Source of the DNA: Streptomyces sp. NBC_00659
GTDB lineage: Bacteria > Actinomycetota > Actinomycetes > Streptomycetales > Streptomycetaceae
Length of the DNA: 64,000 bases
Assembly (NCBI RefSeq): GCF_036226925.1
Contig: NZ_CP109031.1
Span: 1,984,001-2,048,000, forward strand
Reading direction: 5' to 3'
The stretch's first letter is position 1, and the number at the start of each line of letters is the position of its first letter. Under the pieces are notes generated by a model, which saw only the letters and a program-made list of their open reading frames with translations, was not told the DNA's origin and did not search any database. A program made the position numbers and the translations under genes. Positions 9,744-64,000 of the stretch are shown here, in pieces.

Positions 9744-9784
9744 TGGTCCGAACCATTGACAGGGTGGTCTAGTCCTCATACCGT
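9744..9784 (+). promoter_or_regulatory. Orphan chitinase-type promoter with DasR-like repeats
   Basis: Two 12-base repeats, TGGTCCGAACCA (9744-9755) and TGGTCTAGTCCT (9765-9776), flank a -35 TTGACA (9756-9761), which is followed after 17 bases by -10 TACCGT (9779-9784). This is the arrangement of Streptomyces chitinase promoters; the second repeat resembles the DasR site ACTGGTCTAGACCAGT. No rightward gene follows: the next gene is a leftward TetR gene ending five bases on. I read it as the leftover promoter of a lost chitinase gene. Confidence 0.7.
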
Positions 9785-24746: not shown

Positions 24747-25378
24747 GCCGGGGCTCCTTCCATGACGGGCTGCCCGGCCTCACGGGAGCGCAGCCACCAG
24801 TCGCGCATGCCCCACAGGACGAGCGCGCCGTACAGGACGTAGACGAAACCGGAGAAGGCGTAGCCGTTGGCGAAGTTGAGCGGGACGCCCACGACGTCGA
24901 CCAGAAGCCAGGCGAACCAGAACTCGACCATGCCGCGGGCCTGCGCGTACATGGCGACGATCGTGCCGACGAAGATGTACGCGTCGGGCCAGGGGTCCCA
25001 GGACAGCGTCGGGTAGGCGTGGAACAGGCCGCTGACGGCGAGGGTGCCCACGAGGGCGGCGCCCGCCATGTACGCGCGTTCGCGCCAGGTGGCGAACCGC
25101 ACGGAGACGCGTCCGTCCTTGCCCTCGCCGCGGTTCCACTGCCACCAGCCCCACAGGGCGACGACGATGACCACGACCTGCTTGCCGGCGCTGCCGGTGA
25201 GGTGACCGAAGAAGGCGGCGAAGAGGACGATTCCGGAGAGGAGCTGGACGGGCCAGCTCCACACGGAGCGCCGCCAGCCGAGCGCGAGGGCGATCAGACC
25301 GATCACGTTGCCGATCATGTCCGACCACATGATGTGCTGGTCGAGGAGGACGAAGGCCTCGGAGTTCAGCCAGTTCAC
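24743..25378 (-). CDS. ribM: PnuC-family vitamin transporter, probably riboflavin (RibM)
   Basis: 211 residues with about seven transmembrane helices. [41 protein letters not shown] and [37 protein letters not shown] match the PnuC/RibM family. In actinobacteria the member located inside an FMN-riboswitch operon is the riboflavin importer RibM, whereas PnuC itself takes nicotinamide riboside. Overlap of its start and stop with ribE and ribBA (ATGA at both ends) ties it to flavin supply. Confidence 0.88.
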
Positions 25379-26010
25379 TGCCCGGCCCCCTGGACGCCGG
25401 GCAGACCGGCGGACTGCCCACCGCGTGCGCCCAGCAGCCGCTCGACGTACTTGGCGATCACGTCGACCTCGAGGTTGACCGGGTCACCGGGCTGCTTGTG
25501 GCCCAGTGTGGTCAGGTCGAGGGTGGTGGGAATGAGGCTCACGGTGAAGAAGTCGGGGCCGGCGTCGACCACCGTCAGGCTGATGCCGTCGACGGTGATG
25601 GAACCCTTCTCGACCACATAGCGCGAAAGGTCGGCGGGCAGCGAGATCTTGACGATCTCCCAGTTCTCGGACGGCTTGCGCTCGATGACCGCGCCGGTGC
25701 CGTCGACGTGTCCCTGCACGATGTGGCCGCCGAGGCGCTCGCCCACGGCCATCGGCCGTTCCAGGTTGACGCGGGAGCCGACGGTGAGGGCCCCGAGGCT
25801 GGAGCGGTTCAGGGTCTCGGCCATGACGTCGGCGGTGAACTCGTCGCCCTCGTGCTCGACGACGGTGAGACAGACTCCGTTGACGGCGATGGAGTCGCCG
25901 TGCTGCGCGCCCTGCGTGACGACGGGGCCACGCAGCCGGAAACGCGAGGCGTCGTCGAGAATCTCGACGGCGGTGACCTCACCCAGCTCTTCGACGATTC
26001 CGGTGAACAC
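25375..26010 (-). CDS. ribE: Riboflavin synthase alpha subunit
   Basis: 211 residues with the signature FTGIVEELGEV start and two lumazine-binding repeats: NGVCLTVVEHEGDEFTADVMAETLNRS with LERPMAVGERLGGHIVQGHVDGTG, and DGISLTVVDAGPDFFTVSLIPTTL with VNLEVDVIAKYVERL. It dismutates two lumazines to riboflavin. GTG start at 26010 with AGGAGG nine bases upstream. It is the first gene after the FMN riboswitch; the symbol follows the B. subtilis convention (ribC in E. coli). Confidence 0.97.
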   Translation of the reverse strand: MFTGIVEELGEVTAVEILDDASRFRLRGPVVTQGAQHGDSIAVNGVCLTVVEHEGDEFTADVMAETLNRSSLGALTVGSRVNLERPMAVGERLGGHIVQGHVDGTGAVIERKPSENWEIVKISLPADLSRYVVEKGSITVDGISLTVVDAGPDFFTVSLIPTTLDLTTLGHKQPGDPVNLEVDVIAKYVERLLGARGGQSAGLPGVQGAGQ

Positions 26011-26017
26011 TTCCCGG

Positions 26018-26108
26018 GTCCTCCTGCCTCATGGGGCACGGACTCCGGGGCTGTCGATGACGACATAATGAGCGGACCGCGGCACACCGGGAGCGACGCC
26101 GGAAGGAC
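26018..26108 (-). promoter_or_regulatory. Expression platform: possible SD-masking pair
   Basis: In the leftward mRNA, GUCCUUC (26102-26108) can pair with the ribE ribosome-binding GGAGGAC (26018-26024), seven pairs including one G-U. A small stem, CGTCCC-GT-GGGACG (26112-26125), lies between it and the aptamer. This suggests translational rather than terminator control; there is no U-tract. Confidence 0.45.
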
Positions 26109-26166
26109 ACCCGTCCCGTGGGACGAGCGGCGACAAACGGCAGCGCGCACGACATACCCGCCCGCC

Positions 26167-26294
26167 GCGCACTGCCTCCCATCCGGACTTTAACCGTCGG
26201 TCCAGGAATTTCACCTGGTCAACCGGCCGCTGGAAGCGACCGGGTCGCGGACTATAACCGCCGGTTCGGAATTACACCGACCCCGGAGTGCGCT
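26167..26294 (-). promoter_or_regulatory. FMN riboswitch (RFN element)
   Basis: On the leftward strand the conserved RFN blocks appear in order: TCCGGGGTCGGTG, AACCGGCGGT, AGTCCGCGACCC, TTGACCAGGTGAAATTCCT, GACCGACGGT, AAAGTCCGGATGGGAG. The closing stem P1 is AGCGCACT/AGTGCGC (26288-26294 with 26167-26173). It senses FMN and controls ribE-ribM-ribBA-ribH and probably hisE-hisG. Confidence 0.95.
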
Positions 26295-26456
26295 GCTTCT
26301 GGTACATGGCCAGTGTGCCACGCCCGATCGTCGGCCAGAGGGCCGTACCTCTGTGGGGTGGCTCACAACCGGTCGGCATGGACTTCCCCGGAACAGCCCC
26401 CCGGCCAACTTCCCTGACTCCGGGCGACCTTGGGGCAGGTCACAGGTTCCCCCAGC

Positions 26457-26498
26457 TGGTCCATACCTATTGACGCTCTGGTCTAGTCCTCTTAGTGT
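26457..26498 (+). promoter_or_regulatory. Second orphan chitinase-type promoter with DasR-like repeats
   Basis: Two 12-base direct repeats, TGGTCCATACCT (26457-26468) and TGGTCTAGTCCT (26479-26490), stand 22 bases apart around -35 TTGACG (26470-26475); -10 TAGTGT (26493-26498) follows after 17 bases. This is the chitinase promoter layout of streptomycetes; the second repeat fits the DasR consensus at about 13 of 16 positions. Only a leftward ROK gene and hairpins follow. The 315-base gap 26295-26609 holds no gene. Confidence 0.75.
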
Positions 26499-26546
26499 CC
26501 TCGATCAAGACTGCGTGATCATTCATTGCCGGTCCCCCCACGATCG

Positions 26547-26587
26547 ACCCGGCGGCGGTGACGAAGGCCCTTGCCCCGCCGCCGGGT
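26547..26587. terminator. 12-bp hairpin beyond the ROK gene
   Basis: ACCCGGCGGCGG (26547-26558) and CCGCCGCCGGGT (26576-26587) pair perfectly around a 17-base loop. It may back up the ROK terminator, or be the retained terminator of the gene once driven by the orphan promoter to its left. Confidence 0.6.
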
Positions 26588-26592
26588 CTCCA

Positions 26593-26609
26593 GCCGGCCC
26601 TGGGCCGGC
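26593..26609 (-). terminator. Terminator at the ROK stop codon
   Basis: GCCGGCCC and GGGCCGGC face each other immediately after the TAG stop of the ROK gene, giving a compact GC hairpin. Confidence 0.5.
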
Positions 26610-27842
26610 CTACCGCGACGACCGCGGGGCGAACAGCTCGTCCTGGGCGCCGTCGCGTGCGGTCAGGAGGGCGCCGCGCAGCACCGCACCCCCGCCCAGC
26701 GGGCTCGCGCGCACCTCGGTCGGGAGCGGCGACATACGGGCGAGCCGCCGCCCGACCCGAGCGGCGAGCGCCGCGCCGCCCGCCTGGCCGACCTCGCCGC
26801 CCAGGACCACGCACCCGGGGTCCAGCACGGCACTGACGGAGGCCGCCCCGATGGCCAGGCGGTCGGCGAGGGCGTCGAGGAAGCCGTCGGCGGCCGGTGA
26901 GCCGGCAGTCGCCAGCGCCTGCCGCACCAGCGCCGCGGCGTGCGGTTCGTAGCCCTCGGGCCGCGCCGAGACACCGTGCTCCGCCGCGAGCTCCGCGATC
27001 GCCGCGGACCCGACCAGCGAGTGGAAGCCGCCCCCGCAGTCGGTCGCCGAGGGGAGACTCGTGGTGCCCGGCACCGGAAGGAACCCGATCTCCCCGGTAC
27101 CTCCGGAGGCGCCGCGGCGCAGGGCGCCGTCGAGGACGACGGCGGCGCCGGTGCCGTGGCCGATCCACAGCAGGACGAACGTGTCGCGGTCGCGGGCGAC
27201 TCCTTCGCGCTGTTCGGCGAGGGCCGCGAGGTTGGTCTCGTTCTCGACGAGGACGCGGGCCTCGGGCAGCCGTTCCTGAAGGGCCGCGACCAGCCGCCGG
27301 TGCCACGCGGGCAGCCCGGTGGAGTTGCGGAGTTCGCCACTGGCGGGGTCGATCAGGCCGGGCGCCCCGATGCCGACGGTGTGCAGCCTGCCCCACCCCG
27401 GGACGAGTTCGCGCGGGGGCGACACCCCGAGGGAGCCGGCCTCCTTCGCCGCCCGCTCGACCAGCGCGACCGCCTGCTCCACCGCCGGCCCGGTCCCGGT
27501 GCCCTCGCCGATGGGGACCGACGCCTCGGCCAGGACCCGGCCGACCAGATCGGAGACGACGACCGAGACTCCCTCCGTACGGACGTCCAGCGCGGCCAGA
27601 TGCGCGCGGTCCGCGACGATCCCGTAGACCCGGGCGTTCGGGCCGCGCCGCTGCTCCCCCGATTCCCCGACGACGGTGACGAGACCGGAGGCGGTGAGGC
27701 GTTCGACGAGGTCGGCGACGGTCGGCCGGGACAGGCCGGTGAGCTGCTTCAGCCGCGCTGCCGTCAAAGGGCCTTCCTGCTGCAACAGCCGCAGGGCGAG
27801 CCGGTCGTTGATGGCCCGTGCGGTGCTCGGGGATGCGGGCAT
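26610..27842 (-). CDS. ROK-family transcriptional regulator
   Basis: 410 residues. An N-terminal winged helix (LLQQEGPLTAARLKQLTGLSRPTVADLVERLTASGLV) is joined to a ROK sugar-kinase-like domain with LAALDVRTEGVSVVVSDLVG, GIGAPGLIDPASGELRNSTGL, VLVENETNLAALAE and the WIGHGTGAAVVLDGALRRGASGGTGEIGF region. The usual zinc motif CxCGxxGC is reduced to SATDCGGGFHSLVG, as in many ROK repressors. GGGAGGA precedes the ATG at 27842. Divergent from an MFS carrier that it probably controls. Confidence 0.92.
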   Translation of the reverse strand: MPASPSTARAINDRLALRLLQQEGPLTAARLKQLTGLSRPTVADLVERLTASGLVTVVGESGEQRRGPNARVYGIVADRAHLAALDVRTEGVSVVVSDLVGRVLAEASVPIGEGTGTGPAVEQAVALVERAAKEAGSLGVSPPRELVPGWGRLHTVGIGAPGLIDPASGELRNSTGLPAWHRRLVAALQERLPEARVLVENETNLAALAEQREGVARDRDTFVLLWIGHGTGAAVVLDGALRRGASGGTGEIGFLPVPGTTSLPSATDCGGGFHSLVGSAAIAELAAEHGVSARPEGYEPHAAALVRQALATAGSPAADGFLDALADRLAIGAASVSAVLDPGCVVLGGEVGQAGGAALAARVGRRLARMSPLPTEVRASPLGGGAVLRGALLTARDGAQDELFAPRSSR

Positions 27843-27912
27843 GGCGGGAATCCTCCCAGATCGGCGAGCCCGCCGGGCCACCGGGCGACCGGGCGGCGAG
27901 CGGTCATCTATT

Positions 27913-63962: not shown

Positions 63963-64000
63963 AACGCTCCCTGTGGTTGCAGCGGCTGCTGGCTGATCAT

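Follow-up and report, generated by a model that had tools for sequence, protein, structure and literature searches.

Why does a promoter of the chitinase type stand between the riboflavin operon and a ROK-family gene, with no chitinase behind it? We addressed this question in a 64,000-nucleotide stretch of Streptomyces sp. NBC_00659 DNA (the window, meaning the whole stretch analysed, in whose numbering positions are given) and in the corresponding loci of related species.

A DasR-type promoter without a chitinase

The element occupies positions 26457–26498 of the + strand. An upstream DasR-type repeat (dre1, TGGTCCATACCT, 26457–26468) is followed by the −35 hexamer TTGACG (26470–26475), a second repeat that overlaps the promoter (dre2, TGGTCTAGTCCT, 26479–26490) and, with a spacer of 17 bases from the −35, the −10 hexamer TAGTGT (26493–26498). 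The two repeats are 22 bases apart, start to start, and all these parts were found on the + strand where the sequence-only reading had placed them. This is the layout of DasR-type chitinase promoters, with two TGGTCN4CC repeats around the −35, the second of them between −35 and −10. Table 1 of PMC4398421 lists, for S. coelicolor, the DasR sites attggtccatacctat (−75) and actggtctagtcctct (−53) at chiI (SCO1444) and actggtctagtcctcc and aatggtccgaaccatt at chiD (SCO1429). The window repeats dre1 and dre2 are near-matches to the former two, respectively, and agree with these experimentally bound sites except in the first one or two outer letters. TANNNT and TGAC are given as S. lividans promoter sequences in PMC6742748. 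Judged by its letters, the window element is an orphaned chiI-type promoter of the DasR type, at which DasR binding is predicted, and the promoter spacing would put the transcript start at ∼26504–26506.

The element points away from the divergent riboflavin operon on the − strand, with its FMN riboswitch (26165–26295; Rfam RF00050, 100.8 bits) and the riboflavin synthase gene ribE (25375–26010; Pfam Lum_binding), our comparison anchor, for which the orthologue search succeeded in 196 of 199 genomes. It runs toward a convergent ROK-family regulator gene on the − strand (26610–27881; Pfam ROK and winged-helix domains), and the identities of riboswitch, ribE and ROK gene agree with the arrangement proposed earlier.

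The composite motif TGGTCN4CC/TTGAC/TGGTCN4CC occurs far beyond chance. Three copies were found in the 9.66-Mb genome and none in the reversed control, and the motif is present in 167 of 199 genomes of the genus, with no control hit among the matches listed. Besides the copy at 26457, one is at window position 9744 and one is on the minus strand at C1:6425978, ∼0.8 kb upstream of a GH18 chitinase match (6424121–6425173). No GH18 or GH19 match was found in the window; the five GH18 matches and one GH19 match of the genome (E up to 0.001) all lie outside it, consistent with the earlier description of a promoter lacking its chitinase. Relocation of chiI within this genome was also considered and is not supported: four of the seven GH18/GH19 loci compared match chiI, at only 24–28%.

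chiI and its 3′ hairpin at the ribE locus

We compared 81 ribE loci, namely the window and 80 relatives, a non-random set composed mostly of the nearest in ribE plus nine chosen for an element ∼1.5 kb from ribE. Among them, 21 carry chiI, one has a fragment and 59 have none; the chitinase gene that the sequence-only reading placed next to ribE in S. coelicolor (SCO1444) thus has its counterpart here in the 21 loci. We also observed a TGTG...CACA near-palindrome, TGTGGGGTGGCTCACA (26352–26367), between the FMN riboswitch and the DasR promoter of the window. Its pattern matched in 61 of the 81 loci, 319–490 nt from ribE, and it is possibly an operator of the riboflavin operon.

Downstream of the promoter, the window has a hairpin at 26546–26588 of the + strand, with a 13-bp stem (26546–26558 with 26576–26588) and the loop TGACGAAGGCCCTTGCC (26559–26575), as defined from a 63-locus alignment and its covariation. 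A hairpin had been noticed here before; it was described as 12 bp long and 50 bases further on, but the stem has 13 bp, and 47 nt separate it from the −10 hexamer. In the eight loci having both chiI and a window-type hairpin (one of which, L058, reads TGGAC at the −35), chiI is located exactly between the repeats and the hairpin, with 13–16 nt from its stop codon to the stem. The chiI product of L026 has 787 aa and is of GH18 type. The other 13 chiI loci are without a window-type hairpin; some of these are cut short, and several, from a distant clade, have a related hairpin. The hairpin model matched L084 and L089 at E 4e-6 and 8e-5, only moderately better than the score for the reverse strand of a true hairpin (3.5e-4). 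From this comparison, we identify the window hairpin as the 3′ hairpin of chiI.

Remnants of the 3′ end of chiI persist beside the hairpin in three of the 33 spacers tested (L021, 56 nt at 89%; L035, 58 nt at 86%; L064, 96 nt at 93%), and L075 and L040 match weakly. In a quick, midpoint-rooted tree of three proteins, from which 10 of the 81 loci were excluded for too little ROK or MFS sequence, chiI occurs in 8 of the 12 species of the distant clade and also at several places of the inner clade, and 11 changes among three chiI states are required. Because of the remnants and this distribution, loss of chiI is the supported direction, in the form of a deletion of its coding sequence, and a gene order that never contained a chitinase does not agree with the data. 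In L162, chiI has an apparent internal deletion, with part of the C-terminal region gone and the last codons and the hairpin kept; this is possibly an intermediate of deletion. In the distant group (L033, L039, L076 and L081–L089), ribE and the chiI promoter are separated by an additional ∼1.1 kb.

The remnants in L021, L035 and L064 would also suit a passive relic, that is, a promoter and a terminator left after a recent chiI deletion, both decaying and without function. Site 1, an orphan chiD-type promoter at 9744–9776 (TGGTCCGAACCA TTGACA ... TGGTCTAGTCCT) that runs into the end of a minus-strand gene, behaves in this way. We compared it with 20 similar places from the genus motif list. Chitinase-like sequence lies downstream in 18 of the 20 (24–28% to chiI, consistent with chiD), and only the window, L093 and L107 of the 21 loci are orphaned, having no chitinase-like sequence after the element. 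The sequences that follow the element in these three are mutually similar and share no hairpin of the ribE-side kind. Site 1 is probably a true relic, and as such a natural contrast to the ribE-side site.

At the ribE side, the hairpin stands behind a DasR-type repeat in 54 of the 59 chiI-less loci. Four others (L034, L047, L059 and L073) have neither, and L086 has the promoter without a window-type hairpin, a looser pattern being matched somewhere in its locus. The window belongs to a chiI-less clade (support 93, below the program's star, in the quick three-protein tree); 29 of its 30 species keep both repeat and hairpin, and the remaining one, L047, has lost the two together. Across the 54 loci, the hairpin has a predicted promoter of its own, as a small RNA gene would: TTGAC and TANNNT are each present in 49, and dre2 is the best-kept promoter part, with TGGTCTAGTCC exact in 53 and TGGTCCAGACC in the 54th (L030). 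Between dre2 and the stem lie 15–152 nt and never fewer, as would be seen if deletions halted at the promoter and the stem. In 13 loci this spacing is 15–17 nt, and the expected transcription start would fall at about the first stem base. The −35 TTGAC is unrecognisable in five of the 29 clade members (L024, L027, L037, L044 and L071), with the inner repeat and hairpin kept; use of another sigma factor and early decay are candidate readings.

The near-invariance of dre2 could also be expected if the operators serve to titrate DasR, as a decoy or roadblock, and the hairpin is an insulator that merely stops transcription into the neighbours. The hairpin and the DasR repeat go together, even in inverted units (see below), and in the window 21 nt lie between the hairpin and the end of the convergent ROK gene, which would also suit this proposal. 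However, the upstream repeat is recognisable in only 30 of the 54 chiI-less loci and unrecognisable in 24, unlike what is expected of a decoy; the full composite is less frequent in chiI-less loci (30/54) than in those with chiI (19/21; Fisher p = 0.006, uncorrected for species relatedness). The DasR decoy taken on its own, one of two suggestions of the sequence-only reading, leaves the hairpin unexplained.

A scan of named genomes for the hairpin gave at least 118 stretches, 80 of them listed as loci; it overlaps the 81-locus set and is not a separate sample. Among the 80 listed, 60 have TGGTCTAGTCC within 260 bases upstream, five have promoter variants (judged by eye), 14 have a chiI end and one is cut, so that a promoter or a chiI end lies upstream in 79 of the 79 classifiable loci among the matches listed. 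The hairpin pattern matched in 81 of 199 genomes of the genus, and 12 of the matches, lying away from the listed ribE positions, are probably due to chance; three others stand next to ribE in reverse orientation (L290, L291 and L292, see below). The exact loop pattern was found in none of 112 genomes of other genera in the family, and among 101 genomes the hairpin model R1 had a single weak match beyond the genus (E 0.005). In the window genome, this model gave a single strong match (E 6e-10, the next being 0.23), and the hairpin is single copy.

Purifying selection on the hairpin

Majority identity in the 63 aligned hairpins is 95% and 94% in the two arms and 97% in the loop, and 47% and 51% in the flanks. 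Pairing is retained in 99.4% of the 819 stem cells, and only 34–60% pair when the partner is slid by 1–3 columns. Both sides are changed in 22 stem cells, a count that 0 of 500 shuffles reached, and four stem pairs have two-sided change, a number reached in 7 of 500 shuffles; the shuffle leaves relatedness in. Wobble pairs on the + strand, counted as cells and not as events, are 37 G.U against 2 A.C, the latter being the wobble form on the − strand. This excess points to RNA folding of the strand that would be made by the window promoter, and the hairpin is a conserved RNA structure with compensatory changes on that strand.

Fourteen loop positions (three variable columns removed) are identical in 406 of 406 pairs of the 29 clade species; the pattern used for finding the loci fixes most of the loop and partly builds in this identity, and the 30-species clade count serves as the check, with none of the 30 loci having a hairpin changed at these positions. 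In the same 29 species, fourfold-site identity is 73% in ribE and 60% in ROK, and the hairpin flanks have 38% and 33%. Loop changes were observed in L042 (chiI-bearing) and L072 (chiI-less), both outside the clade. These patterns indicate that the RNA fold of the + strand is under purifying selection, which we regard as established at the level of sequence comparison.

These conservation data already contradict the relic reading for the ribE-side site: 29 of 30 chiI-less clade species retain the unit, and loop identity is far above that of fourfold sites and flanks. Dozens of chiI-less species keep repeat and hairpin together, and within the clade the loop does not vary; we consider a passive relic highly improbable. 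The earlier view of the hairpin as a chitinase terminator left behind holds in part: it does follow chiI in relatives, but repeat and hairpin are maintained, with an invariant loop, in the clade of the window. The loop data also bear on the combination of decoy and insulator, which we consider unlikely. A terminator needs no 14 invariant loop positions, and the related hairpins of chiI-bearing outgroups have a variable loop start and keep GGCCCTTGCC or less. Conservation of the hairpin extends to loci that still have chiI, and its role may be no more than that of a good 3′ end.

The hairpin has a GC stem but lacks the U-tract of an intrinsic terminator, and termination at it is uncertain for this reason. 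A terminator/promoter consensus scan of 26000–27000, whose loop limit of 8 and rules are unfit for this site, found nothing, neither terminator-like sites nor a promoter. A search of 26300–26700 against Rfam at a permissive threshold gave two matches (E 3.1 and 7.3), both far below gathering. At the far end of the window, a Streptomyces-metK RNA (RF03063) lies at 63967–64000, cut by the window end.

The constancy of the loop could alternatively reflect a small peptide starting at its GTG, which, being a piece of the hairpin, never varies across the 63 aligned loci. In the 54 loci, the shortest frame from this GTG has 16 codons and the longest meets no stop in 600 nt, and loop length varies by one base between groups. 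With no reading frame kept in these loci, the peptide was rejected, and we assign it a negligible probability.

A possible role in cis, in which the unit would serve the following gene as leader or antisense element, or ROK as a bidirectional terminator, was weighed from the neighbours. The next gene in the 29 clade loci is a convergent ROK in 12, an ECF sigma factor in eight, an SDR in seven, and other or unknown in two. Same-strand ECF or SDR matches lie within ∼25–400 nt in 15 of these loci, and in the window ROK converges on the hairpin, as a cis element would have it. However, the neighbours vary (ROK on −, ECF on +, SDR on +) and the hairpin is constant, and the wobble pairs favour the strand of the promoter over that of ROK. 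The unit also survives inversion: in L290, L291 and L292, chiI-less and outside the 81, the stretch from ribE to ROK holds the DasR repeat, −10 and hairpin as one intact block in reverse orientation, in surrounding sequence that differs. These intact inverted units give more weight to a small RNA and less to the cis and relic readings, and a cis element seems to us very improbable.

A candidate small RNA gene and its relation to known systems

The site is probably a DasR-controlled small RNA gene, formed by deletion of the chitinase coding sequence and acting in trans. The sequence-only reading had suggested that orphan promoters of this type could make short RNAs, and the joint retention with an invariant loop does look like a maintained small RNA gene. 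Upon release of DasR by N-acetylglucosamine or chitin, the chiI promoter, with its DasR operator between −35 and −10, would initiate transcription at ∼26505. The transcript would be ∼85 nt long and would reach the old chiI 3′ hairpin as its 3′ end. The preserved part would be the + strand hairpin, with its GC stem and a loop having the fixed letters UGACG..GGCCCUUGCC, and this loop would most likely act in trans, either base-pairing to an mRNA or binding a protein. We prefer action in trans because the neighbours vary, the unit survives inversion, no reading frame is kept and the loop is fixed. A scan for loop complements (one mismatch, seven genomes) gave 19 non-self matches against 39 in the reversed control; in view of this lack of excess, we do not propose a target. 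On balance, we lean towards the wider interpretation of a regulatory RNA born by excision, signalled by chitin, maintained by selection in much of the genus following repeated loss of the enzyme, and retained even through inversion of the unit.

The rise of new small RNA genes in bacteria can seldom be followed. At this one locus, living species show side by side the parent gene, its partial remnants and what appears to be a finished small RNA gene, which makes the steps testable. If true, the proposal would give the DasR/N-acetylglucosamine network, which governs chitin use and antibiotic production, a further RNA arm in addition to scr5239. It also serves as a caution: an orphan promoter next to a deleted gene may have a function.

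The titles and abstract openings of the literature searched contain no report of the promoter–hairpin RNA, which supplementary small RNA tables might list, and scr1444 was not found mentioned in that literature. SCO1444 is mentioned there together with chitinase, and the mention found of SCO1443 concerns its riboswitch.

The closest known relatives of the element are the DasR-regulated chitinase promoters of chiI (SCO1444) and chiD (SCO1429). It has the two repeats and the 22-base offset of S. coelicolor chiI (PMC4398421, Table 1), and occupies the same position beside ribE as in chiI-bearing relatives. Those promoters drive a chitinase, whereas the window promoter runs into a hairpin. For Streptomyces, transcript ends have been reported that carry a U-rich tail and others that lack one (PMC6742748, PMC8780764, as far as their accessible text goes). 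The window site resembles the latter in having a GC stem without a U-tract at the expected transcript end, but differs in that an invariant loop is kept without the gene that it once ended. The S. coelicolor small RNA scr5239, which is DasR-controlled, 159 nt long, composed of five stem-loops and located near dasR, is likewise a Streptomyces small RNA gene with a DasR operator, as proposed for the window site; its place and structure are different, and the accessible part of PMC7025569 mentions no chitinase origin. Finally, s-SodF of Streptomyces and other small RNAs derived from mRNA 3′ ends consist of the end of an mRNA, as would the RNA proposed here, but they are processed from a living mRNA according to the accessible part of PMC9438474. 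In the window, the coding sequence has been deleted, and promoter and 3′ hairpin would together form a free-standing gene.
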